DNA of 64,000 nucleotides from Candidatus Zixiibacteriota bacterium (GTDB lineage Bacteria; Zixibacteria; MSB-5A5; GN15; FEB-12): NCBI GenBank assembly GCA_034003725.1, contig JAVEYB010000006.1:1-64000 (forward strand). The letters are read 5' to 3'. The notes under the pieces are model-generated. The model was not told the origin of the DNA. It searched no databases and worked only from the letters and a program-made list of their open reading frames with translations. Of the stretch, positions 19,854 through 63,100 are shown piece by piece. The position numbers were made by a program, and so were the translations under genes. Position 1 is the stretch's first letter. Every line of letters starts with the position of its first letter.

Positions 19854-19936
19854 GGGTCCGATGAGACGACGAGGCCGCAACCGGCAACCGAGGCAATCCT
19901 GACTGAAACACAATACTTTTGAATACAGGTGATCAC

Positions 19937-37502: not shown

Positions 37503-39260
37503 TCACGCCTTGAACACTTCTTTTCCGAACAGGCGCAACGACCGCACCTTGCCGGTCACCACCCCTCCGCTCTTGCGAAGCACAGGGAAAACCGACTCGT
37601 TGGTGGACATGGTGAACGACAGCGTCTTGTATCCAGCGTTCCACCAGTCACGCATTGCTACGCCCAGCATCGCCGGCTGAACGCTGTACCCCCGGAACTG
37701 CGGCAGCGTTATACCATCGACAAGGGCGATTTCATCGTCTTTGAGCCGGTACGTCTTATCAATCTCGTACAGGTACGAACTTTTGTACTCGCCCCAGAGG
37801 ATGCCCACGATAATGTCGTTATGAATGCCGACATAGCAGTCGGCGCGCTGCTCGAAACGATCCTGCAAAACCTGGTATTTGCGGGTTTTGGGTTCGGCCC
37901 CATAGAAGGCCGCCACCCGGTCGAGTTCATCAGCCGTCATCTTGCGAACCGTGAGAGGTATTTTCGCCTGGCGGGCCGGCTGCGGTTCTCCCAGCGTCCA
38001 GACCAGGATGACGCGGTATTCGAAGATTCGCTTCCAGATTCTCCCCGGGAGCGCCTTGAGCAGCCCGGACAAACCGTACTGCCGTTTCATAGACGCCAGC
38101 TGCAATTGAATGTTCTTCAGGGTCGCGTTTCCGACCAGCGAGCGGCCGAGCGGCGTTTGCTTGAATCGATAATAGGCGCCGATCATGCGGTGCTTGAGCC
38201 CGCTGCTGTAGACCGAAATGCGGAAGTTGCTGTAGGCCCGGTTGGTCAGCCGGCCTTTGTATTGCTCGCCGCCGCGAAGGTAATCAACCGCTTCACGGCC
38301 CCGGCGGATGTAGTTGTCCGTGATCTGATAGTACAACACGATGCCGGGCGACTTTTTGTTGTAGAACACGTCGAGCGCCGAGGTATACAGATAGATCGAG
38401 TTCTTGTAATCAAAGGCGTAGACATAGGCAACCGGGGTGTCGCCCATGAACAGAGTCTCGAGCCGGGCTATATTGAGCGGTGCAAATACACGGGTGATCT
38501 GATAGTAGAAGTCGCAGTCCGCCTGATTGAGGAATTTGCTCGGGGTCGGCGTGTCTTTCCACCGCAACCAGTGGAACTTGATCAACTGCGGCAGGCGAAA
38601 CTCGATGGCGTCGCAATCAGTCAGCGACTCGTAGGACATGCCTCCGTTTTTATTGAAGTAGTTGACGGAATTGCGGAGGTTGCGGTAGTTACCGAGCCCG
38701 GCGTCGAATGACTCACGGCCCTCTTCCGGTCCCTCGTACGTATACGCATAACATTGCTCAATCTCGTCGATTCGAAACCGCAGCCCGGCATCGGGAAGAA
38801 GCCCGCGCATCAGCCCGACCGTCGTCGATCGCTCGGTAACCTGGCTGAGGACGATGTCGACCCAGTCCGAGCGGTGGCGTGCGAGATAATCAACAACAGC
38901 CGCGAGAACGTTGCGCTTGGCGGTCTTATCGGCGATGATATCGGCATAGTCGGTGTTGCCCGCGCCGATGAACTCAATCGTTCCGGGGCCGGTATCGCCC
39001 GAAACCATGAACGGCGCGATGCCTACGGTCGTGTCGCCGTCGCGGACATCGAGTATATACAGCCGTCTCCCCGCCCCAAAGACACTCCACCAGGTTCGAT
39101 ACCATTGGTGCATCTGGAAAACGGTGTCGAACTCGGTGCGCTCGAGCAATTGGTTCCAGGTCTGCTCCAGCCCGTGAAATCCGGCTTCGGTGTCAATCTT
39201 GTTTACGGTAAGCACGTGTGCGTGGTGTTCCCTTGTGTTGCAGGTTGCCGGAGGTGTCAT
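37503..39260 (-). CDS. FemAB/CelD-like acyltransferase fused to a GNAT domain
   Basis: The 585-residue protein joins two acyltransferase-type regions. Residues about 15-370 look like the FemAB/CelD (BcsL-type) double-GNAT domain used to add amino acids or acyl groups to cell-surface polymers (DTVFQMHQWYRTWWSVFG, then GQ-like HWLRWKDTPTPSKF and PVAYVYAFDYKNSIYLY). Residues about 430-585 form a further GNAT-like domain (MTADELDRVAAFYGAEPKTR, then DEIALVDGITLPQFRGYSVQ). The start overlaps the deacetylase stop as ATGA, marking translational coupling. A role in acylating or aminoacylating the exopolysaccharide is inferred from this context. Confidence 0.72.
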   Translation of the reverse strand: MTPPATCNTREHHAHVLTVNKIDTEAGFHGLEQTWNQLLERTEFDTVFQMHQWYRTWWSVFGAGRRLYILDVRDGDTTVGIAPFMVSGDTGPGTIEFIGAGNTDYADIIADKTAKRNVLAAVVDYLARHRSDWVDIVLSQVTERSTTVGLMRGLLPDAGLRFRIDEIEQCYAYTYEGPEEGRESFDAGLGNYRNLRNSVNYFNKNGGMSYESLTDCDAIEFRLPQLIKFHWLRWKDTPTPSKFLNQADCDFYYQITRVFAPLNIARLETLFMGDTPVAYVYAFDYKNSIYLYTSALDVFYNKKSPGIVLYYQITDNYIRRGREAVDYLRGGEQYKGRLTNRAYSNFRISVYSSGLKHRMIGAYYRFKQTPLGRSLVGNATLKNIQLQLASMKRQYGLSGLLKALPGRIWKRIFEYRVILVWTLGEPQPARQAKIPLTVRKMTADELDRVAAFYGAEPKTRKYQVLQDRFEQRADCYVGIHNDIIVGILWGEYKSSYLYEIDKTYRLKDDEIALVDGITLPQFRGYSVQPAMLGVAMRDWWNAGYKTLSFTMSTNESVFPVLRKSGGVVTGKVRSLRLFGKEVFKA

Positions 39261-40300
39261 GTTCGTCCCAGGATGCGCGCGATCAGTGTATACGTTCCAG
39301 AGAGGCAGAGCTTGAATTCCCACAGGGGCATGTCGGCGCCAATGCCGATACGCCGCAGCTCATAACGGTCGGTCGCGGCATCATTGAGCCCCTCGACGGT
39401 GGAAACGGCGCACGAATATCGTTCGGCAACAACTTCTTTGATCTCATCGTTAAAGTCGTCTTTCGTTCCGTTTGGATAAGCAAACAGGGCCGGCAGGCAA
39501 CCGGTTTCGGTCTGAATAACGGCCTGAGAAGTGCTGATTTCTTCTATCATACGGTCGCGCGGCAGTCTCGTCAAGATTGGATGTTCTACGGTATGAGCGC
39601 CGATCGCAATGAGCGGCTCCCGGGCTATCTGCCTGACCTCGTCCCAACTCATCGGCGCGAATACGGCGGCATCCTCGGGGCGAACTCCGTTGCCGCACCG
39701 GTGTGCCAATGCGGTCAGGGCCTGCTGCCGTTCGGCGTCGGGAAGCCGCTTGAGAGCGCCGCAGATTGCCTTTTTGGCCGAGCCCCGTGACCTCCTGTCT
39801 GTAAGCTCAAAACTGCCCAATTCGTGGTCGGTGAGGTCGATGGTACTTCTATCGGTAGCCAGCAGCAGGGCATACACGTAGTCGGTCCAGATCAGCCCGT
39901 CGAAGCGATTTTGACCGTCGATGAATGACGTGGTGACATAGATTGTCGCTGGCACGCTGTGGCGTTTCAGCACCGGAAGGGCATTCGTCAGGTTGTTGTG
40001 GAAACCGTCATCGAAGGTCACCGCGGCAGCATACGCGGGCAGCGTTCGGTCATAAAGACGAGTTACGGCGGTTTCAAGATCCGCCGGGGCGTACCGCGCC
40101 CTGAGATATGCCATCTGCTCCTCAAATGCGGCGGTCCCTACCTGTGTCCAGACACCCGGGGCACCATCGCTGACCCCGTGGTACATGAGAATCACGAGCC
40201 TGTTTCTATTTGCCCAGCGCACGAGCAGCCATAGTCGGCTCAGGTACAGGCAGTAGAGAAGCGCTCTTTTCAAAGGATTTGGCACGTATGGGTAATCCAC
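39257..40300 (-). CDS. Polysaccharide deacetylase (NodB/CE4)
   Basis: The 347 residues contain the NodB homology domain. Motif 1 AVTFDDGFHNN near 92-102 carries the catalytic base and metal Asp. Motif 2 IGAHTVEHPILTRL near 235-248 supplies the two metal His residues. FAYPNGTKDDF near 277-287 follows. A hydrophobic N-terminus (about 12-30) may hold it at the membrane. It is predicted to remove N- or O-acetyl groups from a sugar of the polymer. The start codon is GTG 40300, directly abutting the TAA of the upstream glycosyltransferase; the stop overlaps the next gene as ATGA. Confidence 0.88.
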   Translation of the reverse strand: MDYPYVPNPLKRALLYCLYLSRLWLLVRWANRNRLVILMYHGVSDGAPGVWTQVGTAAFEEQMAYLRARYAPADLETAVTRLYDRTLPAYAAAVTFDDGFHNNLTNALPVLKRHSVPATIYVTTSFIDGQNRFDGLIWTDYVYALLLATDRSTIDLTDHELGSFELTDRRSRGSAKKAICGALKRLPDAERQQALTALAHRCGNGVRPEDAAVFAPMSWDEVRQIAREPLIAIGAHTVEHPILTRLPRDRMIEEISTSQAVIQTETGCLPALFAYPNGTKDDFNDEIKEVVAERYSCAVSTVEGLNDAATDRYELRRIGIGADMPLWEFKLCLSGTYTLIARILGRT

Positions 40301-42663: not shown

Positions 42664-44061
42664 TCATTGCCCTAGTGGACCTTCGGCGGCTTCCTCCGGA
42701 CTCGACCCCGGAGCTGCCAGCCGCGATACGATGTAGGGGAATTTGCCCGACGGCGAGCGGCGGATCGTCTCGACGCGGCGTAAGTCAACCGAGGTATTCT
42801 CTCCCATGAGTCCGCGCAGCAGCCGCTTAAGTGATGCGACCTGGGCGGCGTGTTCGGTTGGATCGGCGGCAATGTTTACAATTACCTGCCCGATGGTCTC
42901 CTGAACCACTTGAATTTTGGCGCAAATCCGTGAATGTCTCACCGCATCTAATACCGCCGAACCATGCACGCAACTCCCATCGGGGCGTTGCAGGACCTCG
43001 ATCGTTCTCCCGCGCAGATCGACCAGTCGTGGCGATTCCAGTCCGCAGGGGCAGCGAGTTGTATCGATCCGCCCGAGATCTCCAATATCGTATCGGATGA
43101 GCGGCATTGCCGTGTTGCGGAGATCGGTCACGAGAAGCTTCCCAACCTCTCCGGGCATTCCTTTTACCGGCTCGATTTCGCAATAGACACTTTCGGAGAA
43201 CAGGTGATATCCGTTTCGCTCGGAGCATTCGATCCCCGCCGTGCCGAATTCCCGCGCGCCGTACCGCGACAGGCAGCGATCGGCGAGAATCCGTTCGATC
43301 GTATCGCGCTGCGTTTCGGAGAGAGGTTCGGCGGAGCATACCACCAGAGGGACGCGGACCGCAGGCACACGGCCTTCGGAGATACGGACCGCCAAATCAT
43401 ACGCAAGTGTGGCATAGGCGCCGACCAGGGTCGGCCGGTGCGCGCGAGTCTGACGCACGAATCGTGCATACGTTTCATCGGTCAGGTAGGTGGTATCGGC
43501 GAAATAGAGACGGGTGGCGAGAAGCTGCACGAGTCGTGTTTTCAGATTTGAAGGATGCACGGCATCAACTGCCGCACCCCACAGCCAGCCCTGCCACTCA
43601 CCATCGCGCCACCCATAATACCGGCTGAGCGCCAGATCAATACCGCGGCGGTAAAGCTGGCACCTGATGTCTCTGTAGAATTCCAGGGGCTGCCCGGTCG
43701 TACCCCCGGTTGAGGTACGGATGATATGTCCGAGACCGGGCGCTGTCGATACCGCCTTCGAGTCGGCAGCGATCAAATCTGCCTTGGTCACCGGCGGCAA
43801 AAACCGAAGATCATCGAACGAACGCAGATCGCCGGGCTGGAATCCGATTTGCTGAAACCTCTGGCGATAGAACGGCGTGTACCGGGAGGCCAGCTCGACT
43901 ATCATGCGGAGCCTCTGAAGCTGCCGCTCCCGCTGCACCTCCAACGGCTGATGGATCGATTCGTGTACGTCTTCGGCATGGCGGTATTTCGGCCATTCGC
44001 CGCGATGAAAATCAAGCAGTCGAACGGCCAGTCGGCCTGCTAGTCGAGATGCCACCAACAT
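42664..44061 (-). CDS. CapK/PaaK-like adenylate-forming enzyme (copy 1)
   Basis: The 465 residues resemble phenylacetate-CoA ligase-type AMP-forming enzymes and the capsule protein CapK. Key parts are the P-loop-like IIRTSTGGTTGQPLEFYR, the acyl-binding YGAREFGTAGIECSE, a Cys-pair CPCGLESPRLV after DIGDLGRID, and SGKFPYIVSR near the end. In polysaccharide loci such proteins are thought to activate an acid for transfer, but the substrate is unknown and CoA use is unproven. GGGGAGG lies 5 bases before ATG 44061. It is one of three paralogs in a row, all on the same strand. Confidence 0.78.
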   Translation of the reverse strand: MLVASRLAGRLAVRLLDFHRGEWPKYRHAEDVHESIHQPLEVQRERQLQRLRMIVELASRYTPFYRQRFQQIGFQPGDLRSFDDLRFLPPVTKADLIAADSKAVSTAPGLGHIIRTSTGGTTGQPLEFYRDIRCQLYRRGIDLALSRYYGWRDGEWQGWLWGAAVDAVHPSNLKTRLVQLLATRLYFADTTYLTDETYARFVRQTRAHRPTLVGAYATLAYDLAVRISEGRVPAVRVPLVVCSAEPLSETQRDTIERILADRCLSRYGAREFGTAGIECSERNGYHLFSESVYCEIEPVKGMPGEVGKLLVTDLRNTAMPLIRYDIGDLGRIDTTRCPCGLESPRLVDLRGRTIEVLQRPDGSCVHGSAVLDAVRHSRICAKIQVVQETIGQVIVNIAADPTEHAAQVASLKRLLRGLMGENTSVDLRRVETIRRSPSGKFPYIVSRLAAPGSSPEEAAEGPLGQ

Positions 44062-44191
44062 TAATCCTCCCCGAGAGGCAGTCTTGTGCCTGACCGCAAT
44101 GTTGCCCGGGATAAGCACGGATGCTCGAACGCAACTCCCGAAGGCGACATCGGTGCGAAAGTCGACGCGGGTCGGTCGGGCGGATAGCCCG

Positions 44192-44416
44192 TTACCGAGG
44201 CCTCACCGAGTCAAATTCCTCAGCAGTCAGCCACCGAATCTCACCGACGGTCTGGGCAAAATACAGACACAGCCCACGGTAGACGATCTCCAGCCGACCG
44301 CGATTTCGGTCACTGGCGTTGAGGCGGGCCCACAACTCACCGTTGCGGTCGGCGCATACGACTTCCGTTTCGGTCTCAATCAGATGCAGTGGAAACGAAG
44401 GAACAGCTACCGGCAT
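44192..44416 (-). CDS. Small conserved-looking hypothetical between CapK-like genes
   Basis: A 74-residue protein (MPVAVPSFPLHLIETETEVVC at the start) with no membrane segment, two Cys residues and a mixed charged tail. GGGGAGG lies 5 bases before the ATG, identical in quality to the neighbouring CapK-like genes. That is the main reason to believe it is translated. I recognise no family. It sits between two CapK-like genes, 130-140 bases from each, so it may be a helper or carrier for them. Confidence 0.5.
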   Translation of the reverse strand: MPVAVPSFPLHLIETETEVVCADRNGELWARLNASDRNRGRLEIVYRGLCLYFAQTVGEIRWLTAEEFDSVRPR

Positions 44417-44555
44417 GACTACCTCCCCAAAGAGATTGGTTGAATTGCCAATCCATTATGTGGGGTAGAAACGCCATCTCATGACTGTTAGCGGCGGAAA
44501 AACTGCACGTTAATGGCGACCGGTTGCAGAAGCGATGGCAGGGCGCCCGGTCTGA

Positions 44556-45917
44556 TCAGGAGGGAATTTCGCACTTGAAGTAGCGCAATTTGCCGGACTT
44601 TTCGGGAGGGATGTCATCGACGATTTCTATGGAGACTGTCACTGCCTCGCCGATGAGGTTCTTTATACAGGTCCGGATGTGTTCCTGCAGCTCGGGAGTG
44701 GCCGGCGGGTCGTTGGTGATTTTCACGTGCCAGTCGGTCAGTGTCCGCTGGATGATCTGCGTCTTTCCCATCGGAGGTCCGGTTTCAGTGATCTGGACGC
44801 CGAGGACGAGTCCGGACCGACGGGTGCCGTCGAGCGCGACGTAAAAGTCCGACAGACGGCCGACACCGGCGGTCATCAGCGGAAGACTGCGACCGCATGA
44901 ACATGTAGCTTCGAGAGGACGTCCGACGTCACTCAATTCATAGCGAATCATCGGAAATCCGTAGTTGGTCAAGTCCGTGACGAGTATCTCGCCGTCTTCA
45001 CCGGGACCGACCGGTATTCCATCGCGTACGAATTCGACGACCGCGATCTCCGCGGCGATATGGTGACCTTCGTGCGCCCTGCATTCGCACGACGTATTTC
45101 CGACCTCGCGCGAACCGTACATATCATAGACGGGGGCCTGATACGCGCGTTCGAACAGCTCGCGCATGGATGGATACAGCATCTCGCCGGTTGACATGAT
45201 CCCCTTGACTTTCTCCAGCGGGAGCTGCCGGGCGAGAGCGTACTCGGTAAATGCCAGGAGGCCGCCGGGAAAGCACTTGATGTAGCGCGGGCCAAATGAG
45301 CGGAAGTCCCGGTAGAAACGCTCCAGCGTATCGGCAGTGGCTCCCCCGGTATAAAACAACTGCATACGCTGCAGGTAGCGGTCTTTAACGTGCGTCAGCC
45401 AGGAATGATGGTGGTGAAAATCGATGTGGGGCGGCCAGAAAATCGAGACTTTGTCGCCCGGCATCTGCCCCATAAATCCCTCAAACCGCCAGGCCACGGC
45501 CTGTTTCATGGTTGCACCGATCTTGTCACGATACAGCGTGAGGCGACGCGTGGTGGTACCGCCGGTGCCGAATACCTGCAGGTGCTCCTCGGTGAATTTC
45601 GACGAGATGAGATCGGTGCGATGGGCGTCGATCAAATCACGCGTCAGGACGGGGAGTTTCCGGAGGTCGTCCACCGACTTGAATGAGTCGGGCGTCAGCC
45701 CGCGTTCGTCGAACACGCGCCGGTAGTACGCTGTCGTATCGTAGGCATGTTTGAGCATCTCCGACAACCGCTGCCACTGATAGTCCAGCAGGCGCTGGCG
45801 CGGCCAGTACTGGCTTTTCAACAGGAACTTCCATTGCGCCATCGCGGCATGCTTTTGTTCCCGCACCAGCAGCAGCCGCTGCGCCGTGTTGCGCAGCAGA
45901 GTCGAGTACAACGACAT
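44556..45917 (-). CDS. CapK/PaaK-like adenylate-forming enzyme (copy 2)
   Basis: The 453 residues share the copy 1 plan: FGTGGTTTRRLTLYRDK (ATP loop), MYGSREVGNTSCECRAHEG, then CSCGRSLPLM, and a C-terminal IPPEKSGKLRYFKCE carrying the expected lysine. The Cys-rich segments suggest bound metal, as in the family. Substrate unknown. AAGG lies just before the ATG. It lies 29 bases after copy 3 in the same direction. The middle of the protein has a His run (FHHHHSW) not seen in the others. Confidence 0.78.
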   Translation of the reverse strand: MSLYSTLLRNTAQRLLLVREQKHAAMAQWKFLLKSQYWPRQRLLDYQWQRLSEMLKHAYDTTAYYRRVFDERGLTPDSFKSVDDLRKLPVLTRDLIDAHRTDLISSKFTEEHLQVFGTGGTTTRRLTLYRDKIGATMKQAVAWRFEGFMGQMPGDKVSIFWPPHIDFHHHHSWLTHVKDRYLQRMQLFYTGGATADTLERFYRDFRSFGPRYIKCFPGGLLAFTEYALARQLPLEKVKGIMSTGEMLYPSMRELFERAYQAPVYDMYGSREVGNTSCECRAHEGHHIAAEIAVVEFVRDGIPVGPGEDGEILVTDLTNYGFPMIRYELSDVGRPLEATCSCGRSLPLMTAGVGRLSDFYVALDGTRRSGLVLGVQITETGPPMGKTQIIQRTLTDWHVKITNDPPATPELQEHIRTCIKNLIGEAVTVSIEIVDDIPPEKSGKLRYFKCEIPS

Positions 45918-45946
45918 CCTTGTTTCCCTGTCCGTGAATTCCCGTG

Positions 45947-47323
45947 CTACTTCAAATGGGCGACCGGGTCGATTTCCGAAATACTGAAGCGGTATTTTCC
46001 CGACGCTTCAACCGGAATCGAATCTACCTGTTCAATCTCGTACTTCATCAGCGGGCCGAAAAAGCGATTGACCGACTCGGCAATCATCCGCTTCGAATCC
46101 TCGCCGAACGATTGATCGACAGCCAGTCGCAGCAGAAGGAAGTCTTTTTTCTTCTGCACAAGCTGCGCCTGCACGATTCCAGGCACGCGCGCGATGAAAT
46201 AGATCGTCATGGCGGCGCCCGAAACGACAGCTCCTTCGGGTGTGACCAAAAAGTCCGTGACGCGCCCGCCCACGATTTCCATCATCGGCAAGGTTCTTCC
46301 GCATGAGCACCCGGTCTCAAGAAGCATCCCCATATCTTCGATCCGATACCGGATGAACGGCAGCGCGTAGTTGTGCAGATCCGTGATTACGATCTGCCCC
46401 AGCTCGCCCGGACGGCACGCCCGGTCATTGCGGATAATCTCAACCAGGAGCGTATCGGCGGCAATATGCAGACCGCGATGCGCCTCGCATTCCGACGCGA
46501 TCACACTGAATTCCCGGCTGCCGTAGCGGTTGAACACCGGGCAGCCGAAGACATCCTCCAGCAGGCGCCGCTGATCGTCGGTCAGGACCTCCGCGGAGGT
46601 AATGATGCTTTTCGGGCGGTGGTAACCGGTGATTCCCCGCTCCTTGATGAAACGCGCGATCAGGTAAATCGCGTTGGCGTATGCCACATAGGTCGACGGT
46701 TTCTCTTTGTTGAGGCGCTCGACAAACCGAGCCAGTTTCTCTTCCGTGATCTCGCTGGTATCGAGGATCACGCGGCGGGAGAAAAACCGGTCGCGAAGGT
46801 TGTCCATGGTAGAGCGGGGAGCGTTCAGGTCGCGACGGTGGCCCCAGATAGCCGCTCCTTTGTGATAGGGCTCGAGTCCGGCCCAGCGGTCGTGCCTGAT
46901 CGTATTGGCGATACGTCGGTAGACGCTGTCCGGGCTCATGAAGAACCGGAGGGGCGACCCGGTAGAGCCGCCGGTCTGGTTCGGGATGCGGTCAGAAATC
47001 GGCAGGCTGGCAGCCGTCAGTTCGTCCCGATGTTGCTGGATATCGCTTTTGGTGAGGACCGGCAGACGTTCGATATCACGAAGAGACTGCACCGCGACCG
47101 GATCGAACCCTGCCTCGGCAAACCGGCGGGCGTAAAAGGGGCAGTTTTTCGCGGCGTGCGACAGCAGAGCCTTCAGGCGCGTCAGTTGCAACTGCTGCAA
47201 TTGCTCGGGCGGTAACCACTGAGTACGTTCGGCCTCGCGAACGAACTTCATGTCAGTGTGCCGATTTCTGATCCCCATCAAGGGGATAACTACATACCGC
47301 GCCAGTGGTTGAATCCAGTCCAT
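45947..47323 (-). CDS. CapK/PaaK-like adenylate-forming enzyme (copy 3)
   Basis: The 458 residues again show the adenylate-forming pattern: RIPNQTGGSTGSPLRFFMSP, the RYGSREFSVIASECEAH segment, CSCGRTLPMM and the terminal VEASGKYRFSISE. The N-terminus (about 1-16) is hydrophobic and may touch the membrane. ATG 47323 is preferred over the GTG at 47425, which would overlap the polymerase gene without family similarity. It follows the O-antigen ligase-like gene by 88 bases. Confidence 0.78.
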   Translation of the reverse strand: MDWIQPLARYVVIPLMGIRNRHTDMKFVREAERTQWLPPEQLQQLQLTRLKALLSHAAKNCPFYARRFAEAGFDPVAVQSLRDIERLPVLTKSDIQQHRDELTAASLPISDRIPNQTGGSTGSPLRFFMSPDSVYRRIANTIRHDRWAGLEPYHKGAAIWGHRRDLNAPRSTMDNLRDRFFSRRVILDTSEITEEKLARFVERLNKEKPSTYVAYANAIYLIARFIKERGITGYHRPKSIITSAEVLTDDQRRLLEDVFGCPVFNRYGSREFSVIASECEAHRGLHIAADTLLVEIIRNDRACRPGELGQIVITDLHNYALPFIRYRIEDMGMLLETGCSCGRTLPMMEIVGGRVTDFLVTPEGAVVSGAAMTIYFIARVPGIVQAQLVQKKKDFLLLRLAVDQSFGEDSKRMIAESVNRFFGPLMKYEIEQVDSIPVEASGKYRFSISEIDPVAHLK

Positions 47324-47411
47324 GATTACGAGTGCTCCATTTCGGGCGTGCCCGGTACGGTCGGGCTTTTGATCCCGCGTGCCGCATTCCGGGTCTAACG
47401 ATGTATCGGCA

Positions 47412-48869
47412 TCAGGTGCCTGCACCTTCGGTTATCGGACGCGATTGGTTCGCCGAAACGGCGGTGTCGCCGGTTTGTTCCTGAAGCGCCGTTTTGACGT
47501 AGATGGCCGCCATGGCTCCGATCAGGCCGGCATACATGTACCAATTCCAGCGGAAAAAGTTGTGCGCCGTGCCACCGTTGACCAGCATCGCCAGCATGGA
47601 GGCGACAAATGCCTCTTTATGCGCATGATACCACCGCACCAGGTCCGGATCTTTCGGGGGGGAGTGGAGTCGGCGCGGGGTCGTCAGCACCTGGTGGAAC
47701 GCGCTCGCGAGGAAAATGAAAAAGGCAAAAAATCCCACGATGCCCAACTCGGCGAGCAGCTGGACGTACAGAGAATGCGGGCTCATGAAAATCTCCGGTC
47801 CGTACTTGCCGGACCCGCTGGCCGGCGCAAATGCTCCGGAGCCACAGCCGAGAATGGGTCGGTCGGCAAAAATACGCATGCCGTTTTCCCAGATCGCCAC
47901 GCGGTTGGTGCTGATCTCATTCACATCGCCTCCGCTGACCAGGGTTTCATACCGCCCCTGGTATTGCTCCGGAAGCAGGAACCAGGCGATCAGCAGAAAC
48001 GCAGCTGCGCCGAGCGCCCCCGCAAGTCGGTATTTGCTGTACCAGACCGTAACGCCGACCACGGTCAGTGTAGCAAGCAGACCGCCACGCGATCCGGTGT
48101 TGACAATCATCAGGAGGAACATGAAGAGTACGCCCAGAAGAATCGTGCGGGGGATCTTTCCGCGAAAGTACTTGATCCAGGCGATGAGGAACGGCAGCGT
48201 AAAGGCGAGCGTGGCGGCGAGCGTATTGGCGCCGCTTCCAAATGAACCTCGGCCTGTCGCCCGCTGAATACCCATACGAATAACCGCACCGCCACCGTAA
48301 TAATCGCGAAACGACAAAAACATCTCGCGGAACATCAAAAACAGGAAGACTCCCATGAAGATGTTCCACTTGGTCCTGGTGTCGACGGTATACACGATGA
48401 TCATGTAGAAGACGATCAGTTTGAGGAAGTTCTCGATAGACTCCTCGGTCCTGACGGGATCGAAACTGACACCCCAGGAGATGATGATAACCGCCCAGAG
48501 TCCCAGCATCGTAATGAAGGGCATGTCGTGAGGCAGTCCAAATGACCCGTGGCGTTTCTTGTGCGCGAGGATGGCAGCGAGAAGCACGCCGATGCCGATG
48601 ACCCGTTCCAGCGATAATGCATCCAGCGCCGGAAACATCTCCCCCGGACGAATCACGAATGTCACGAAATAGAGCAGTAACCCGACATAGGGAAATCGCA
48701 CCAGCAGTACTATACCGATAGTGAGCCCGGCCAGCGCGATGAAGATCACCGGTTTCAGAAACAGCGAGCAGACCCCGACAACGAGGCTGATGAGGACGAT
48801 TGTCGCCCACAGCAGATGCCGCTGGGAGACCATGCCCCGGCCGCTGAATTCCTGATAGCGATGGTTCAC
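47412..48869 (-). CDS. O-antigen ligase/polymerase-like membrane protein
   Basis: The 485-residue protein has about eleven to twelve membrane helices. A periplasmic loop (about 285-355) holds NRVAIWENGMRIFADRPILG, the conserved O-antigen ligase (WaaL/Wzy) block, followed by SPHSLYVQLLAELGIVG. Family members join polymer to lipid A or polymerise lipid-linked repeats on the outer face of the inner membrane. Which of the two occurs here cannot be told. It lies 36 bases after the UDP-sugar dehydrogenase gene in the same operon. Confidence 0.85.
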   Translation of the reverse strand: MNHRYQEFSGRGMVSQRHLLWATIVLISLVVGVCSLFLKPVIFIALAGLTIGIVLLVRFPYVGLLLYFVTFVIRPGEMFPALDALSLERVIGIGVLLAAILAHKKRHGSFGLPHDMPFITMLGLWAVIIISWGVSFDPVRTEESIENFLKLIVFYMIIVYTVDTRTKWNIFMGVFLFLMFREMFLSFRDYYGGGAVIRMGIQRATGRGSFGSGANTLAATLAFTLPFLIAWIKYFRGKIPRTILLGVLFMFLLMIVNTGSRGGLLATLTVVGVTVWYSKYRLAGALGAAAFLLIAWFLLPEQYQGRYETLVSGGDVNEISTNRVAIWENGMRIFADRPILGCGSGAFAPASGSGKYGPEIFMSPHSLYVQLLAELGIVGFFAFFIFLASAFHQVLTTPRRLHSPPKDPDLVRWYHAHKEAFVASMLAMLVNGGTAHNFFRWNWYMYAGLIGAMAAIYVKTALQEQTGDTAVSANQSRPITEGAGT

Positions 48870-51491: not shown

Positions 51492-51556
51492 GACAAAGCG
51501 GCTGCTTTACTCTCCGACGGCGGCAGCCGAATCACGTTACGGGATTGACAGGTTTC

Positions 51557-52144
51557 ATGCTAATTCGAGAGATAGTTCGAGCCATTTTCAACAGACAGCA
51601 GCGGTTCCGCTTCCGCTATCACCTCGTTCGCAATCTCCCCGGGGAGTACGGTTTTATTCTCCGTCGTCGGGTACTGGCGAAGTGGTTTGGATCGTTGGGG
51701 AAGAATCTGAAGGTGCACGAGGGGTTCCGTTTCCGTAATATCGAGTTGATCCGTTGCGGGAGCCACGTAAACATCGGGGTTGATGCATTCATTCAGGCGG
51801 GCGGCGGCGTGGAGATCGGCGACTACGCGATTCTTGGCCCGGGCGTCAAGGTCTGGACGCAGAATCACGCGTCCGCCCGGACGGATATCCCCATCCAACA
51901 GCAGGGGGCCGAATACAAGCCCGTGGTGATCGGGCGCGACGTATGGATTGGCGCCAATGCCTTTATCATGCCCGGGGTTACGCTGGGCGAAGGCTGTGTC
52001 GTGGCTGCCGGCGCGGTGGTCGGCGCAAAGAACTACCCCCCGTACAAGATTCTGGCCGGCAATCCTGCGCGGGTAATCGGCACACGCGAAAACAGCGAAA
52101 GTGCACCGACCGCCGCTCCGGACCCGTCGAGGGAGTCCGACTAG
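51557..52144 (+). CDS. Hexapeptide-repeat acyltransferase
   Basis: The 195 residues form a left-handed beta-helix acyltransferase of the CatB/WbbJ/maltose acetyltransferase type. Repeating hexapeptides run from IGVDAFIQAGGGVEIGDYAILGPG (about 79-102) through VVIGRDVWIGANAFIMPGVTLGEG to VVAAGAVVGAK (about 153-163). A catalytic His in TQNHASAR lies near 108. The end, ILAGNPARVIG, is the family signature. It probably O-acetylates a sugar of the polymer using acetyl-CoA. ATG 51557 is chosen over TTG 51545. It precedes a glycosyltransferase gene by 31 bases. Confidence 0.88.
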   Translation: MLIREIVRAIFNRQQRFRFRYHLVRNLPGEYGFILRRRVLAKWFGSLGKNLKVHEGFRFRNIELIRCGSHVNIGVDAFIQAGGGVEIGDYAILGPGVKVWTQNHASARTDIPIQQQGAEYKPVVIGRDVWIGANAFIMPGVTLGEGCVVAAGAVVGAKNYPPYKILAGNPARVIGTRENSESAPTAAPDPSRESD

Positions 52145-52175
52145 TGGATCAGGTCGTTCACTCCGGAAACCGCAC

Positions 52176-53540
52176 ATGACATCATCGCCCAATAAAAAAG
52201 TCCTGATCGTCTCGTACGCCTTTCCCCCGTCGGCTGCGGTCGGCGTGTATCGAGTCATCAAGTTCTGCAAGTATCTGCCGCAGTTTGGATGGGATCCGGT
52301 GATACTGACGGTCCAGGAAGCCGTGAGTTTCAGCCGCGACGAGTCTCTGCTCGAGCAGCTCCCCCGCGACCTGAAGGTGTACCGGTCGAAAGACGCATCG
52401 CCGGTGACATGGTACGAGAAAAAGACCGGACGCGGGCCGCTGGAGCCGGTGGCAGCGCCAACAGCAGATCCGTCTGCCGGAAAAACCCCCGCCACCACGC
52501 CCGTGTCGCCGTCGCTGCCGGGGCGGATCAAAGGCTACATACGCCGCTCACTCTTTACACCGGATGACAACGTCTTCTGGGTTCCGTATGGAGTATCTGC
52601 CGGACTGAAGGCGATTAAGCAGGAACGTATCGACGTCATTTTTACAACCTCGCCGCCGGCGTCGGCACATCTCGTGGGATACTGGCTGTCGGTTCTCACC
52701 GGCACGCCGCTGGTGATCGACTTCCGCGATCTGTGGACACAGAATGCCGGCTATCGGCAAAAGAACAAGCCCGCTCCCGCGCGCCTCTACGACCGGTTCC
52801 TCGAGAAGCGCTGCATGAAGCGGAGTCGATTCATCGTGACGGCCACCGAAGGGTTCACGGACCTCGTTCGCGGCAAGAACCCGTACAAGCCGGCCGACAG
52901 AATCGTCACCATCACCAACGGACTCGATCCCGATGACTTTGCGTCGGTGGAGTTTCCAAGCGCGAAAAATGAGCGGTTCACGATACTCTATCTCGGCAGC
53001 TTGTACGGCGCCCGCAACCCGTTTTTCTTCTTCGAGGCGCTGGAGCATTTCCTGGATCGTCGCCCGGAGGCGCGTGACAACATACGGGTGGACTTTGTTG
53101 GCGGCGCCAAAGGGTATGAGCATGCGACCAAAGGCAACCGATTGGAGAAGATTGTACGGTGGCTCGGACACGTGCCGCAAAAGCAGGCGCTGTCGCTGCT
53201 GTGGCAGGCTGATGTCCTCCTGCTGCTTCTGGGTTTCGGTGAAACCCACACGACCGTCATCCCTGCCAAGCTCTTCGAATACATCGCCACCGGACGGCCG
53301 ATCCTTGCGTTTGTGCCGGAAGGTCAGTCGAGCGCATTGATCGAGAAATACAACCGCGGACTCGCAGTAACCTCGCCGGACAAAGACAGAGTCGCTGACT
53401 TCATAGCGTCACGCTATGACGCTTGGGTCACACAGGATGGTCCGCTGCCGTCGAAGATCGACCTGCCCGAGGAGTTTGACCGTCGAGCGAAGACGAGACA
53501 CTTGTCCGAAGTGTTCGAACGGGCCCGCCAAACGCGCTGA
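52176..53540 (+). CDS. GT-B glycosyltransferase (family 4-like)
   Basis: The 454 residues start KVLIVSYAFPPSAAVGVYRV, a donor-side GT-B opening, with a low-complexity linker near residues 90-125. The C-terminal half holds VTITNGLDPDDF, ILYLGSLYGARNP, VRWLGHVPQKQALSLLWQAD and PAKLFEYIATGRPILAFVPEG, the E-rich donor site. Cytoplasmic; donor unknown. The open frame extends 75 bases upstream inside the acyltransferase gene, but ATG 52176 fits the fold. It follows the hexapeptide acyltransferase gene and precedes the ACP-ligase module after a 270-base gap. Confidence 0.87.
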   Translation: MTSSPNKKVLIVSYAFPPSAAVGVYRVIKFCKYLPQFGWDPVILTVQEAVSFSRDESLLEQLPRDLKVYRSKDASPVTWYEKKTGRGPLEPVAAPTADPSAGKTPATTPVSPSLPGRIKGYIRRSLFTPDDNVFWVPYGVSAGLKAIKQERIDVIFTTSPPASAHLVGYWLSVLTGTPLVIDFRDLWTQNAGYRQKNKPAPARLYDRFLEKRCMKRSRFIVTATEGFTDLVRGKNPYKPADRIVTITNGLDPDDFASVEFPSAKNERFTILYLGSLYGARNPFFFFEALEHFLDRRPEARDNIRVDFVGGAKGYEHATKGNRLEKIVRWLGHVPQKQALSLLWQADVLLLLLGFGETHTTVIPAKLFEYIATGRPILAFVPEGQSSALIEKYNRGLAVTSPDKDRVADFIASRYDAWVTQDGPLPSKIDLPEEFDRRAKTRHLSEVFERARQTR

Positions 53541-53577: not shown

Positions 53578-53606
53578 TTGACAAACATAGGCTCGTAAAG
53601 TACATT
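53578..53606 (+). promoter_or_regulatory. Candidate promoter of the carrier-protein operon
   Basis: A perfect TTGACA at 53578-53583, a 17-base spacer, then TACATT at 53601-53606. The ACP start codon is about 200 bases downstream, implying a long leader. Confidence 0.5.
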
Positions 53607-53814: not shown

Positions 53815-54054
53815 ATGTATCAGGGGATCCAACAAGAGATTGTGGCAGTCATTCGAGATGTGGGAAATCTGTCCGGCGATATTCCCTCAGACAAGGATTT
53901 GTACTCTGAACTCGGAGTTGAATCGGTCAACTCGATCCATTTGCTGCTGGCTCTGGAAGACAAATTCGGCGTGTCAATCGATGATACGCAGTTTGTCCGG
54001 GCGCGCACGGTTGCCGGGCTCACCAACCTGATTGCGGATTTGCGGGGGAGCTGA
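53815..54054 (+). CDS. Acyl/aminoacyl carrier protein
   Basis: The 79 residues are a carrier protein: four-helix pattern, acidic, with the phosphopantetheine attachment segment LGVESVNSIHLLLALEDKFGV. The site reads Glu36-Ser37-Val38 where typical ACPs have Asp-Ser-Leu, and a second Ser follows at 40. Ser37 is the likely carrier of the arm. It abuts the next gene exactly (stop TGA 54052-54054, ATG 54055), so the pair is translationally coupled. By family knowledge, stand-alone carrier proteins next to class II aaRS-like ligases are loaded with an amino acid. Confidence 0.85.
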   Translation: MYQGIQQEIVAVIRDVGNLSGDIPSDKDLYSELGVESVNSIHLLLALEDKFGVSIDDTQFVRARTVAGLTNLIADLRGS

Positions 54055-55245
54055 ATGACCGTTATTGCTATCGAGCTTCCCAACAACATACCGTCCGATG
54101 TCGCGATTGAAATTGCGAAGCGCGCGTGTTACTGCGACAGTCGTATCACGGACAGCCGATTTGATGCCGAGCAGCGTCGACTTGAAATCCGCTGTGAGAA
54201 TGGCGACGGTTCGTCCGATGTCGCGGACAAGGTGCGGCTGCTGATCGACAAGATGAAAACCGAGCGGCTCGCCGTGCAGTCGAAAGTGCTGCGATCGCGA
54301 CAGGGTGGGTCGACCGATTTCGATGCCGACGTGTTTCGCTCGTTGGAGGGGGCCGGAGACGTATTTACCGAAGGTATCGGCGTCATCAGCCGAGGCGGCA
54401 CGTTTCTGTCGCTGTTGATGCGGGTCGACCGGCTGCTTGAACGTATCGCCACCGACCTGTTCGGCGCTGCGACGAAGAGCTACAATACGCTGATTCCGGC
54501 CGACTGGCTCCGCCGGGCCGGCTATTTTTCTTCTTTCGCGCATTCGATCACCTTCGCGACCCATCTCTCTGAGGACTTCCATCGCATCGAACGGTTTGCC
54601 GCCCGCCACAAGAACGGGCGGCCCCTGCACTTCGAAACACTCGATGAAATCGCCACACCCGAGTACTGCCTGTCTCCCGCAGTCTGTTATCATACCTATG
54701 GAAGTATGGCCGCCATGACGTTTGGAGATACTGACGAGGGTCTGAGAACCGTCACAGCGGCAGGCCGGTGTTTCCGATACGAATCGAAAAACCTTACCGC
54801 GCTCGATCGCCTGTGGGAGTTTTCGATGCGGGAGATTGTCTTTGTCGGCGAGAAGCGACACGTGCTCGATGCGCGACAGCGGGCGGTCGATACCGTCTGG
54901 CGTTTGGTGGAGATTCTCGATCTGCACGCGACCCTCGAAACAGCCTCCGATCCGTTTTTTGCCACGGATTTCCGCTCGCTGCGGTTTTTCCAACTGGCCA
55001 ACGAACTGAAATATGAGCTTCGCCTTCCGGTGGAACCGAACCGGTCGATCGCGGCAGCATCGTTCAACTATCACGAGAGCTTTTTCGGAGACGGATTCGC
55101 GATTCGCACCGCTGAGGGCGCGGCGGCGCACACCGGATGCGCAGCGTTCGGCCTCGAGCGGCTTGTATTCGCCGCGCTCGCACAAATCGGAGCGGAGGCG
55201 CTTCTGTCGCGTTTAGGTGAAGCTGAGAAAGAGTTGACACGGTAA
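54055..55245 (+). CDS. Amino acid:[carrier protein] ligase (class II aaRS-like)
   Basis: The 396 residues match the aa:CP ligase family, shortened homologs of the seryl-tRNA synthetase catalytic domain. These load an amino acid on the phosphopantetheine arm of a carrier protein rather than on tRNA. Visible parts are RAGYFSSFAHSITFATHL, LSPAVCYHTY, class II motif 2 GRCFRYES with RLWEFSMREIVFVG, and motif 3 GCAAFGLERLV. Cys211, Glu260 and Cys362 are plausible zinc ligands by analogy (inferred). There is no tRNA-binding arm. The carrier protein immediately upstream is the expected substrate. The amino acid cannot be predicted reliably; relatives use small ones. The N-terminal 140 residues are a divergent region. 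Confidence 0.85.
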   Translation: MTVIAIELPNNIPSDVAIEIAKRACYCDSRITDSRFDAEQRRLEIRCENGDGSSDVADKVRLLIDKMKTERLAVQSKVLRSRQGGSTDFDADVFRSLEGAGDVFTEGIGVISRGGTFLSLLMRVDRLLERIATDLFGAATKSYNTLIPADWLRRAGYFSSFAHSITFATHLSEDFHRIERFAARHKNGRPLHFETLDEIATPEYCLSPAVCYHTYGSMAAMTFGDTDEGLRTVTAAGRCFRYESKNLTALDRLWEFSMREIVFVGEKRHVLDARQRAVDTVWRLVEILDLHATLETASDPFFATDFRSLRFFQLANELKYELRLPVEPNRSIAAASFNYHESFFGDGFAIRTAEGAAAHTGCAAFGLERLVFAALAQIGAEALLSRLGEAEKELTR

Positions 55246-55269
55246 CCGATGGAGAAAGGGGCAACGATC

Positions 55270-56274
55270 ATGCAGCCCGCAGACGGGTTTTCGTTTGTTT
55301 TTGGGCCGGACCTCGGACAGGTATCGGAGTTGATCTGCCGCACGTGGGCGCGGCCGTGCTGGCATTACGATGTCGGCCTGTTGCAGCTGCACATCATGCG
55401 GCCGTCGGGCGACCCGGAGTTGACGGTTGGACAGGTTTCCGCCGATGGCCGGCTGGCCTCGTTTCAAGCGTATATGCCGTTTGACGTGGAGTACTATGGC
55501 CGTCGCTATCGAGCCGTCTTTGCCAGTTTTCTGACCGTGTCGTCCGATTTTCACGGCAAGGGTCTGGCCGGACCCCAGCAGGGAAAGCTGATCGAAAAGG
55601 CTATAGATAAAGACTACGACCTGTACATAACGATGTGCGAGGTGGGGGCAGCCTCGAACCGGGCGGTCGAGAAAATCTTCACGAGCAAGGGACTGGACGT
55701 CAAAGTCGTCAACGTCCTGCAATACTCCGCGGCGCTGCGCGAGCTGGTAGACCCGATCCTCCCCACCCAACCGAGCGGTCATACGCGACCCTATCGCGCG
55801 GAAGATCGGTCGCTCATTCTTCCGCTCGTGCGAAACCTCGGCGGAAGCGTTCCGCTCAAAAAGATCATCCCGGACGACGACATCGACTTCCTCATGATGA
55901 CTCGTCCGCACACGCGCTCGTATGTATGGGAGGAGGACGGGCGCGTTCGCGCGCTGGCCAATCTGTTGCTGCTCGAAGTGATCGAGCCCGATGAATCGAG
56001 ACGCCTGCACGCGTACTTCGACAACGTGTCGTTCGGGGACTTGAGCTCGGAAGCACAGACGGTGTTCATTGCGGACATCATGATGGCGCTGCGGGAGACG
56101 AATTACACGACGGCGTTCATGCCGAATATCGGCTACGTCGCCGCCGATCCGTTCCGCAAGAACCGGTTCCGGACGGCGCCCCGTCAGATCAACCTCTATA
56201 TCGCGCCGTTGCGTCCGAAAGTTCTCCCGGACGGCATAAAGCCGGTCGACGGGTTTTATCTCGATGTGTACTGA
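55270..56274 (+). CDS. GNAT-superfamily transferase of the aminoacyl-carrier module
   Basis: The 334 residues contain a GNAT-type core near 85-130. The acyl-CoA/phosphopantetheine loop is FHGKGLAGPQQGKLIEKA and a following strand is ITMCEVGAASNRAVEKIF. The C-terminal half (about 180-330) looks like a second, partial GNAT domain (DRSLILPLVRNLG onward). Coming directly after the carrier-protein ligase, it could take the amino acid or acyl group from the loaded carrier protein and place it on a sugar. That is inference from context. ATG 55270 has GAAAGGGG 8 bases upstream; ATG 55249 does not. Confidence 0.7.
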   Translation: MQPADGFSFVFGPDLGQVSELICRTWARPCWHYDVGLLQLHIMRPSGDPELTVGQVSADGRLASFQAYMPFDVEYYGRRYRAVFASFLTVSSDFHGKGLAGPQQGKLIEKAIDKDYDLYITMCEVGAASNRAVEKIFTSKGLDVKVVNVLQYSAALRELVDPILPTQPSGHTRPYRAEDRSLILPLVRNLGGSVPLKKIIPDDDIDFLMMTRPHTRSYVWEEDGRVRALANLLLLEVIEPDESRRLHAYFDNVSFGDLSSEAQTVFIADIMMALRETNYTTAFMPNIGYVAADPFRKNRFRTAPRQINLYIAPLRPKVLPDGIKPVDGFYLDVY

Positions 56275-56292
56275 TATCGGCCGGGGTCGGGG

Positions 56293-56976
56293 GTGAAAGA
56301 AGTGCTGAAATACACGGTGTATCTGGTCGGAACGCTGTGCGGCGGTCTGATCGGATTCCCGCTGGGCCTGCTGGCCTTCGTGGAGAAGTGGACTATTCGC
56401 ACCGAGGGCGTCTACCTTTTCGGGGCGCAGCTGGTCGCCTTGTTCCCCGGCTGGCCGGGCAATTTCATTCGGTCGGCGTACTACCTGATTGCGCTCGATT
56501 CTTTTCACATCACCGCGATTATCAGTTTCGGGACTTATTTTTCGAACCGCGCGTCGCGTGTCAGGCAAGCAGCCGGAACCGGCGCATACTGCATTATCGG
56601 CATGACCGATATCGGGGAAAGCGTCCGAATCGCCAGTCGTGTGTCAATCACGTCGGGAATCCACCAGCACGGGTCGTCGGCTACGATTGGTTCTTCAAGT
56701 TCAGCGGCCGGACATCGCCGACGAGTTTCAATCGGCCGTGGGGCGTGGATCGGTGAAGGCGCCGTGATTGGTGCGGATATCGGAGCGGGGGCGGTAGTCG
56801 CCATGGGGGCGGTAGTCACGAAGCCGGTTCCCCCGTATGCTATGGCGATGGGAAATCCCGCCCGGTTGATGCCGACCGTGTCGGTAACCGCTCCCGGTCA
56901 GGTATCGGCTTCCGCCGACCTCGAGCAGCGGACTCCCCGCGAAGTTAATCCACCCGCCCGCGAATCAACCGCTTGA
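56293..56976 (+). CDS. Hexapeptide-repeat protein with hydrophobic N-terminus
   Basis: The 227 residues begin with hydrophobic segments at about 8-30 and 40-80 (membrane association), then a left-handed beta-helix from about 100 (AYCIIGMTDIGESVRIASRVSI onward) to GNPARLMP near 195. It is likely an acyltransferase of the LbH class acting at the membrane. Start GTG 56293 is uncertain; another GTG lies 9 bases later. The last 32 bases overlap the 3' end of the convergent deacetylase gene. Confidence 0.7.
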   Translation: MKEVLKYTVYLVGTLCGGLIGFPLGLLAFVEKWTIRTEGVYLFGAQLVALFPGWPGNFIRSAYYLIALDSFHITAIISFGTYFSNRASRVRQAAGTGAYCIIGMTDIGESVRIASRVSITSGIHQHGSSATIGSSSSAAGHRRRVSIGRGAWIGEGAVIGADIGAGAVVAMGAVVTKPVPPYAMAMGNPARLMPTVSVTAPGQVSASADLEQRTPREVNPPARESTA

Positions 56977-61066: not shown

Positions 61067-63067
61067 CTATACGTTGCGCCCTGTCGCAGCGGACTCGTCA
61101 TGCCACACGGTAAATGCCTCGCGCAGAGCCGGCTCCGGTCGGCGATAGGCATGGATGTAATGATGCGCCAGCAATTGGGTCGACAGAATCCCCACAAAAG
61201 ACATGTTATCCTTGAAAGACAGGTGCTTCCCTGCCGACCGTCGGCATTTCGCCACCAATCGCTCGACACTGGGCGCATGGAACAGACCCGTCTTTTCCAG
61301 CGCTTCTCGCGAGAGCAGTTCCGCGACATATGCCGGCGAGTCATCCTGCACAAAGCAGTTTGAATCCGGCGCCATGTACGGCTGTTTTACGCGTTTCGTG
61401 ATTTCGGGCGGAAGCTCTCGCGCCATCGCCTTCTTGAGCACGTATTTTTCGTTCAGGCCGAAGATCTTGTAACCGGGCGGAATCGTGGCGGCAAATTCCG
61501 CGACGCGGTGATCCAGAAACGGATACCGCCCCTCGATGGAATTCCCGGCGCACACCCGGTCTCCCTGCGACGACAACAGATAGCCCGACAGCAGCGAGCG
61601 TGCCTCGAGATACTGCGCTTTCGCGAGGTGGTGCCAGCGGTCGAACCCGTCCGGCAGATCCGATTGAAACGCCCGAAGGGCGTCGTGATCGTCCACAGCC
61701 GCTTTCACGTCGCCGCTGAAGAAGTCCTTGATCTTGGTGGTCGTACTGATACGGGGCAAATGCGAGAAACAGTACGTGTCCGGCTGGTCGAGCCCGATCT
61801 TGTAAAACTGTTCGAGGTAGAACCCCGCCTGCGGCCCCTGGCCGGGAAGAGTCGGGTAGAGCTTTCGAAGCAGCGCGGGCCGCCACTTGGAGTCGGGATT
61901 TTTCGCCCAGAAGGCGCGGATGATCGTTTCCTTGAACAAATCGTATCCCGCCAGCATTTCATCGGAGCCTTCGCCGGTCAGCACGACCTTGAAATCGGTC
62001 CGTCGTACCAGGTCCGACAGCAGATACAAAGGCGTCGGCGCCGTGCGCACGACCGGCCGCTCGGTGTGCCAGATCACCCGGGGAAATGCCTCGGCAATCG
62101 AGCGATAGGTCGCACAGACGGTGTGATGATTGGTTCCCAGATACTCCGCCATTTGATTCTGATATGCGGATTCGTCAAACGCCTTGTCATCAAACGTCAC
62201 CGAGAAAGTCTCGATCCGGTTCGGCGTGAAATGCTTCACCAGTGCGGTCGTGACGGATGAATCCAGTCCGCCCGACAAGTAGGCCCCCACCGGGACGTCG
62301 GCACGCAGTTGCAGCCGGACGGCATCGACCAGCAGCGCATGAAGCTCTTCGGCGTACGAATCCACAGGCCGGGAGTAGTCAAACGTGGTCGGAAACAGCA
62401 TCGACCAGTACCGTCCGGTCCGAAGCTTGCCGTGCTCGATTTCGAGCGAGCAACCGGCTTCGAGTTCGTTGATATTTTCGAACAAGGTTCGCGGCGGTGC
62501 GGAGGTCCACCAGGTGAACGTTTCGTCCAGTCCTTTCAAATCAAACCGTCGCGGCACGTTCGGATCGCAAAAGATCGCCTTGATCTCCGACGCGAAGTAG
62601 AAGCGGCCGTCGCAGACGGTGTAGAACATCGGGCGGATGCCCAGACGATCACGCGCGGCGAAGATTTTTGCATTGCGCTTGTCGTAAATGACGAACGCAA
62701 ACTGGCCGTTGAAGTGCTGCACGCAGTCGGTCCCGTATTCCTCGTACGCATGCACGATTACTTCGGTATCCGAATGGGTGCGGAAGCGGTGGCCGCGTCG
62801 TTCCAGTTCGGGTCGGAGCTCGAGGTAATTGAAGATTTCGCCGTTGAAGGTCACCCACACCGAGCCGTCTTCGTTGCACAGCGGCTGCGAGCCGCCGGAC
62901 AAATCGATAATCGACAGCCGGGCCTGCCCGAGCGCACAGCGGTTGTCGAAGTAGGCGCCGAATTCATCGGGCCCGCGATGCTTGATCGCGTTGACCATGC
63001 GGGCGATCAATTCGTGATCGGGCGCGGCCGGTTCGGTCATCTGGAAGTAGCCGGCTATTCCGCACAT
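61067..63067 (-). CDS. asnB: Asparagine synthetase B (glutamine-hydrolysing)
   Basis: The 666-residue protein has an intact class II glutaminase domain beginning MCGIAGYF with catalytic Cys2, FNGEIFNYLELRPEL and AARDRLGIRPMFY. The synthetase domain has GAYLSGGLDSSVTTAL near 239-254. It converts aspartate (or a related acid) to an amide using glutamine and ATP. The C-terminal extension is longer than in primary asparagine synthetases, as in versions tied to exopolysaccharide loci. It begins 33 bases after the acyl-CoA ligase stop, in the same operon, which hints at a role in modifying the polymer. Confidence 0.9.
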   Translation of the reverse strand: MCGIAGYFQMTEPAAPDHELIARMVNAIKHRGPDEFGAYFDNRCALGQARLSIIDLSGGSQPLCNEDGSVWVTFNGEIFNYLELRPELERRGHRFRTHSDTEVIVHAYEEYGTDCVQHFNGQFAFVIYDKRNAKIFAARDRLGIRPMFYTVCDGRFYFASEIKAIFCDPNVPRRFDLKGLDETFTWWTSAPPRTLFENINELEAGCSLEIEHGKLRTGRYWSMLFPTTFDYSRPVDSYAEELHALLVDAVRLQLRADVPVGAYLSGGLDSSVTTALVKHFTPNRIETFSVTFDDKAFDESAYQNQMAEYLGTNHHTVCATYRSIAEAFPRVIWHTERPVVRTAPTPLYLLSDLVRRTDFKVVLTGEGSDEMLAGYDLFKETIIRAFWAKNPDSKWRPALLRKLYPTLPGQGPQAGFYLEQFYKIGLDQPDTYCFSHLPRISTTTKIKDFFSGDVKAAVDDHDALRAFQSDLPDGFDRWHHLAKAQYLEARSLLSGYLLSSQGDRVCAGNSIEGRYPFLDHRVAEFAATIPPGYKIFGLNEKYVLKKAMARELPPEITKRVKQPYMAPDSNCFVQDDSPAYVAELLSREALEKTGLFHAPSVERLVAKCRRSAGKHLSFKDNMSFVGILSTQLLAHHYIHAYRRPEPALREAFTVWHDESAATGRNV

Positions 63068-63100
63068 GATGTCATTCGTCACGCCCCGGCGGGATCGGTT

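Follow-up and report, generated by a model that had tools for sequence, protein, structure and literature searches.

A four-gene aminoacyl-carrier cassette with a predicted N-myristoyltransferase-like enzyme in Zixibacteria

Loading of amino acids onto carrier proteins has been shown for ligases related to class II aminoacyl-tRNA synthetases (aaRSs), known as amino acid:carrier protein (aa:CP) ligases, and their acceptors are mostly only predicted. Here, we describe a cassette of four genes that places such a ligase and its carrier beside an enzyme resembling N-myristoyltransferase (NMT) and a hexapeptide acyltransferase. The cassette occupies positions 53815-56976 of a stretch of DNA from Candidatus Zixiibacteriota bacterium (GTDB lineage Bacteria; Zixibacteria; MSB-5A5; GN15; FEB-12; assembly GCA_034003725.1, contig JAVEYB010000006.1, positions 1-64,000, forward strand), the whole of which is referred to below as the window. 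Class II aaRS-like aa:CP ligases themselves are already known; the new part is the NMT-like partner of the aminoacyl-carrier pathway.

Several described systems resemble parts of the cassette. The closest ligase of known structure, Bll0957 of Bradyrhizobium (PDB 3MEY, 4H2W), shares with it the class II aaRS core and the Cys/Glu/Cys zinc-ligand pattern, and ligases of this type likewise have an adjacent carrier and lack most of the tRNA-binding part; the cassette ligase, however, carries ~100 extra N-terminal residues, and plasmid-borne homologs in Rhizobium and Azospirillum lie instead beside acyl-CoA (coenzyme A) dehydrogenase, DUF1839 and GH2 genes. Iyer et al. 2010 proposed an Agrobacterium pathway that joins an amino acid to a surface-sugar amine via the protein Atu2574 (PMC2922099), which, judged by its position among the Rhizobium genes, is taken to be a member of the papain-like DUF1839 family (PMC10318531). 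The ligase superfamily, the carrier and the predicted formation of an amide bond are common to that pathway and the cassette, but DUF1839 is not homologous to the cassette GNAT (rejected at an HHalign probability of 0.2%), and no DUF1839 gene is adjacent to the cassette. The DltABCD and AlmEFG systems do comparable work, a ligase, a carrier and an acyltransferase moving an amino acid, with DltA/AlmE-type ligases (PMC12930378); these are adenylate-forming carrier-protein ligases rather than aaRS-like ones, and their transferases (MBOAT or AlmG-type) are unrelated to NMT, whereas the cassette transferase is a GNAT. Lastly, the ZmaJ-type seryl-acyl carrier protein (ACP) ligase of the aminomalonyl-ACP module is matched by a carrier close to the ligase and by Streptomyces homologs, placed in that arrangement of genes, to which the cassette ligase is similar over its full length, but the annotated neighbours of the cassette include no acyl-CoA or 3-hydroxyacyl-CoA dehydrogenases, polyketide synthases (PKS) or nonribosomal peptide synthetases (NRPS).

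A co-inherited unit of four genes

The cassette consists of four plus-strand genes arranged head to tail, where the initial annotation had placed them, and the start of the ligase directly abuts the stop codon of the carrier.

53815..54054, plus strand: dedicated carrier protein, 79 residues; PF00550 at E 7e-11; codon of the phosphopantetheine Ser37 at 53923-53925
54055..55245, plus strand: class II aaRS-like amino acid:[carrier protein] ligase, 396 residues; NF005479 at E 1.5e-41; PDB match Bll0957; zinc-ligand-equivalent Cys211, Glu260 and Cys362, motif 3 Arg369
55249..56274, plus strand: predicted NMT-like tandem-GNAT N-acyltransferase, 341 residues; AlphaFold, Foldseek and profile against the PDB; invariant Tyr40 and Phe94, C-terminal LDVY; start more likely at 55270, judged by the family
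56293..56976, plus strand: predicted membrane-anchored left-handed beta-helix (hexapeptide) acyltransferase, 227 residues; PF14602 above cut-off
53578..53606, plus strand: TTGACA-N17-TACATT, a promoter-like site ahead of the carrier gene; 10 of 12 positions fit the consensus; weak

Separate searches for ligase, GNAT and carrier in a phylum set of 132 genomes found each of them in the identical 6 genomes, always adjacent, so that the coupling of these genes first noticed in the window holds far beyond chance. A second scan, for the ligase-GNAT pair in a collection of species-representative genomes, returned 16 loci in records titled Zixibacteria, Krumholzibacteriota, Myxococcota and Proteobacteria, five of which are phylum genomes already counted among the 6. 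The hexapeptide gene is conserved in the cassette across this collection and comes next on the same strand at 15 of the 16 loci; at the Krumholzibacteriota locus, the hexapeptide homolog is weak and lies on the opposite strand. Nine Proteobacteria loci have the pair without an adjacent carrier, and in all seven of their genomes that were tested a cassette-type carrier is encoded elsewhere (E <= 5e-29), compared with ~2e-6 for a second carrier, presumably of the fatty-acid type, in the same genomes. Mirror-tree correlations between the ligase, GNAT and hexapeptide proteins are high (r 0.92-0.96). Because of co-occurrence, adjacency, dedicated carriers encoded elsewhere and correlated trees, the ligase, GNAT, carrier and hexapeptide genes are a co-inherited functional unit.

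The ligase matches the NCBIfam model NF005479, 'amino acid--[acyl-carrier-protein] ligase', with 142 bits, below the model cut-off of 357, and forms a sister branch outside the equivalog for which the model was built. Its sequence alone matches Bll0957 in the PDB at E 2.9e-28 and seryl-tRNA synthetase (SerRS) more weakly; with the family profile, the values are 8e-82 and 5e-37, respectively. Cys211, Glu260, Cys362 and the motif 3 Arg369 are invariant among 23 ligase homologs and align with Bll0957, in which the counterparts of the first three are presumably zinc ligands. The similarity to SerRS starts ~150-175 residues into that protein, most of whose N-terminal part is absent; conversely, ~100 N-terminal residues of the ligase remain beyond the SerRS/Bll0957-like core. 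In the carrier, Ser37, which stands in a GVES context, is invariant in the six orthologs. The aaRS motifs and the carrier serine of the initial annotation were thus confirmed, and these sequence comparisons support both the placement of the enzyme in the aa:CP ligase lineage and a carrier dedicated to the cassette. Judging from its relatives, the amino acid is likely to be one of glycine, serine and alanine.

Three features of the wider family were observed alongside. In acid-environment Proteobacteria (L064-L070), the stand-alone cassette-type carrier gene adjoins a response-regulator/GGDEF gene and has a Kdo hydroxylase gene nearby, each in 7 of 7 genomes; a search for an acceptor pathway beside this carrier gene found these genes and no clear pathway. 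The Proteobacteria loci L020-L029 have a conserved lipoprotein-like gene of ~500 codons on the same strand just upstream of the ligase. Finally, in Myxococcota/Deltaproteobacteria (L030:642-3344, L031:124-1977, L033:2296-4985), genes for a carrier and an MBOAT-like membrane protein precede that of a more distant ligase (31-32% identity); two of these three MBOAT-like proteins give weak PF03062/PF13813 matches. The order is Dlt-like, except that the aaRS-like ligase is found where DltA would stand.

An N-myristoyltransferase-like GNAT

Taken alone, the window GNAT has no match in a Pfam search and nothing in the PDB at E <= 10; NMT was seen only with an 18-member family profile. The AlphaFold model of the protein is a confident tandem GNAT (predicted local distance difference test score, pLDDT, 92.8; predicted template modelling score, pTM, 0.90), and when it was compared with the PDB by Foldseek, the best 50 of 446 significant matches were all NMTs, at E ~1e-22 and template modelling (TM) scores of 0.74-0.80 (typically ~0.76) by query length over 330-350 columns, although this ranking does not by itself establish fold specificity. 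With the 18-member profile, the match to NMTs spans both domains and reaches 5e-9, and the next-ranked GNAT scores 0.15. By contrast, a 15-member profile of another tandem-GNAT family encoded in the cluster, taken as a control, gave a mixed list with a GNAT at 9e-4 and NMT at 2e-3; this sequence control was used in place of a fold control, the AlphaFold model of the neighbouring GNAT (58046) having reached a pLDDT of 38 from a 2-row alignment. The profile evidence for a relation to NMT is more specific than the structural ranking. The initial annotation had recognized a GNAT coupled to ligase and carrier; the tandem-GNAT fold and the strict coupling bear this out, and the resemblance to NMT had been missed. 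The Pfam NMT models PF01233 and PF02799 give weak matches, below cut-off, in 9 and 4 of the 18 members, respectively, and a scan of the phylum genomes with the Pfam NMT model, which is too insensitive for this purpose, found no match in the window genome.

NMT residue numbers were mapped onto the GNAT by us from the profile alignment. The oxyanion-hole Phe-Leu of NMT aligns with Phe94-Leu/Phe95, of which Phe94 is invariant, and the active-site Tyr192 aligns with the invariant Tyr40. All 18 NMT-like proteins stop at the identical residue in a C-terminal [LM]DV[YF], unlike the ligase and hexapeptide proteins, whose C-termini vary. The terminal carboxylate acts as the catalytic base of NMT, and the roles of the active-site residues have been described (PMC7048800); a review of GNATs regards catalysis by a C-terminal carboxylate as unique to NMT (PMC4964394). 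The fixed C-terminus is the most telling sign of NMT likeness. A CoA pyrophosphate-loop pattern, Q/H-G-x-G-L-A/G, is kept in the Zixibacteria GNATs, and a CoA-type loop in most members outside the Proteobacteria. A second NMT-like paralog occurs in tandem at L009:5440-6450 (= L015:10214-11224; 32% identity), with the CoA loop lost and the C-terminal LDVY kept.

Overall, the cassette enzyme shares with eukaryotic NMT the tandem GNAT fold, the profile match, the equivalents of the oxyanion hole and Tyr192, and a C-terminus at a fixed position, but differs in being bacterial, in its linkage to aminoacyl-carrier genes, in altered equivalents of Thr282 and Asn246 and in scores below the Pfam cut-offs. 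Neither bacterial NMT relatives nor this cassette were found described in the open-access literature, subscription papers lying mostly outside the scope of that search. The cassette provides one branch of the aa:CP ligases with a fixed enzymatic partner resembling NMT, an enzyme described as eukaryotic.

The fourth protein, annotated initially as a membrane-associated hexapeptide acyltransferase, retains that description, with its PF14602 match and a hydrophobic segment at ~residues 8-30. Its nearest solved relative is maltose O-acetyltransferase (5e-15). An LpxA/LpxD-like, ACP-dependent hexapeptide enzyme was considered and is not supported, the maltose-acetyltransferase type being closer.

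Candidate reactions of the cassette

The four genes may constitute a self-contained accessory cassette that makes an amino-acid conjugate. Judging from its family, the ligase would activate the amino acid and load it onto the dedicated carrier as a thioester. The fold and C-terminus of the NMT-like enzyme suggest that it would then form an amide bond, with the C-terminal carboxylate as general base; most likely, the amino acid on the carrier would be N-acylated at its free alpha-amine by an acyl-CoA, the phosphopantetheine arm taking the place of the peptide gripped by NMT. Since the amino acid is held as a thioester, its carboxyl group would finally be transferred, and the membrane-anchored hexapeptide enzyme is the candidate for moving the N-acyl-aminoacyl group to, or finishing, a membrane or small-molecule acceptor. 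We favour this scheme, in which the aminoacyl-carrier is one substrate of an NMT-like amide-forming enzyme, tentatively and at somewhat less than an even chance. The retained CoA-type loop and NMT's own chemistry favour an acyl-CoA in the role of donor, with the aminoacyl-carrier providing the amine that is acylated; the narrower proposition, that an amino acid thioesterified to a carrier by an aaRS-like ligase is the natural amine substrate of a bacterial NMT-like enzyme, is more doubtful. If true, it would amount to a stand-alone route to lipo-amino acids that belongs to none of the NRPS, OlsB and FeeM types, and could represent a prokaryotic relative of protein N-myristoylation in eukaryotes.

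Several observations weigh against this scheme. No member of the cassette families has a known activity, and the window GNAT alone matches neither of the Pfam NMT models. Where NMT has Asn246, the cassette enzyme has Ser93, and where NMT has Thr282, it has Glu131, or Val in the Proteobacteria. Members of the Proteobacteria branch have an altered CoA loop and one paralog has lost it, so that carrier-bound donors are conceivable too. Finally, the hexapeptide enzyme has its closest relatives among acetyl-CoA-dependent sugar acetyltransferases rather than in the ACP-dependent LpxA/LpxD.

The strongest alternative, which we regard as unlikely but well ahead of the remaining ones, reverses the roles: with the aminoacyl-carrier as donor, the NMT-like enzyme would aminoacylate an amine or hydroxyl on a protein, a lipid or a core envelope glycan, the acceptor being other than the local exopolysaccharide, and the hexapeptide enzyme would cap or acylate the product. 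GNAT-fold enzymes of the Fem/MprF/VlmA kind transfer tRNA-borne amino acids (PMC2922099), and in the Dlt and Alm systems envelope polymers and lipids receive amino acids from a carrier (PMC12930378); envelope genes such as lpxD, ompH, bamA and yidC adjoin several cassette loci, and in a Myxococcota relative an MBOAT-like protein accompanies carrier and ligase. Acylation of the aminoacyl-carrier is nevertheless preferred, as the closest relative, NMT, acylates amines from acyl-CoA and a CoA-type loop is kept in most members outside the Proteobacteria. The small size of the unit, four small genes, makes it possible to rebuild it in vitro, where acceptor and chemistry are directly testable.

The polysaccharide cluster and other acceptors

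The initial annotation read the cassette as part of the surrounding polysaccharide cluster, with the GNAT aminoacylating a sugar of the local exopolysaccharide in a new role for the ligase family. The neighbours that it named are present: a GNAT domain (PF13480) at 37503-39323, AsnB at 61067-63082 and mutually homologous CapK-like genes at 42664, 44556 and 45947. In the window's genus, the cassette lies inside a cluster of glycosyltransferases, a Wzy-type ligase, UDP-glucose dehydrogenase, an epimerase, CapK-like genes and deacetylases, the last of which could expose amines; in a second genus of the same family (three genomes), it lies ~7-10 kb beyond the end of the orthologous cluster. A sugar amine is also the acceptor predicted in 2010 for the Rhizobium-type pathway (PMC2922099), and hence the proposed role is not new as an idea.

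The distribution of cluster and cassette speaks against such a role. A genome of the window's own genus, G063, has the cluster in the same order (63-88% protein identity) without the cassette and without one CapK-like paralog (42664). Between the same flanking genes, its cassette slot (C3 ~49.9-52.7 kb) is taken up by a lipoprotein-like gene, an RHS-like fragment and a transglutaminase-like gene, and is thus a variable insertion site; although G063 is 78% complete, the occupied slot is part of a contig of 351 kb. Likewise, an orthologous CapK gene (E < 1e-130) occurs in 16 phylum genomes, 5 with the cassette and 11 without. Beyond this family, the neighbours are housekeeping genes: ssb, NAD synthase and lpxD-ompH-bamA in G068, of a second Zixibacteria family; phoH and yidC in Myxococcota; a D-Ala-D-Ala ligase in Krumholzibacteriota; and rpoH-ftsX-ftsY in Proteobacteria. 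Window-type glycan genes were sought around the cassettes of these four groups and not found; the association with glycan genes thus holds inside or near the cluster in two genera and fails in G068 and the other phyla. Since glycan cluster and cassette are each maintained in the absence of the other, the local exopolysaccharide is an unlikely acceptor, and we consider this reading improbable. Rather, the association is explained by an ancestral position close to the cluster, given that the cassette lies inside it in one genus and ~7-10 kb away in another; the sugar cluster of this lineage is also maintained where the cassette, an accessory next to it, is missing, which corrects the glycan reading.

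The cassette might alternatively provide the aminoacyl-carrier from which a specialised metabolite is built, in the way that ZmaJ-type ligases serve the formation of aminomalonyl-ACP. Streptomyces homologs align over ligase residues 1-381 with 34-35% identity and lie in PKS/NRPS clusters with an aminomalonyl-ACP-like set of carrier, acyl-CoA dehydrogenase and 3-hydroxyacyl-CoA dehydrogenase genes (cf. ZmaJ, PMC6395733); with none of the dehydrogenase, PKS or NRPS genes seen beside the cassette in annotated loci, the chance of such a function is slim. Charging of tRNA by the ligase, followed by tRNA-dependent transfer by the GNAT, draws on the homology of the ligase core to archaeal-type SerRS and is highly improbable in view of the mostly absent SerRS N-terminal part, the dedicated carrier in every cassette genome checked and an aa:CP ligase as the closest solved relative.

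Some minor features of the window remain to be mentioned. A terminator-like site follows the glycosyltransferase gene upstream of the cassette, and together with the promoter-like site is placed as for a separate transcription unit of the cassette; both patterns are weak, and the promoter-like pattern occurs 3 times in the region against 1.3 expected. Within the polysaccharide cluster, the three homologous CapK/PaaK-like proteins are encoded in a row at 42664-47425 on the minus strand. A further hexapeptide acyltransferase gene lies at 51545-52144 on the plus strand, and the 323-codon minus-strand open reading frame antisense to it (51560-52531) is probably no gene. A fused ATP-sulfurylase/APS kinase is encoded at 19919-21676 on the plus strand and could indicate sulfated products.

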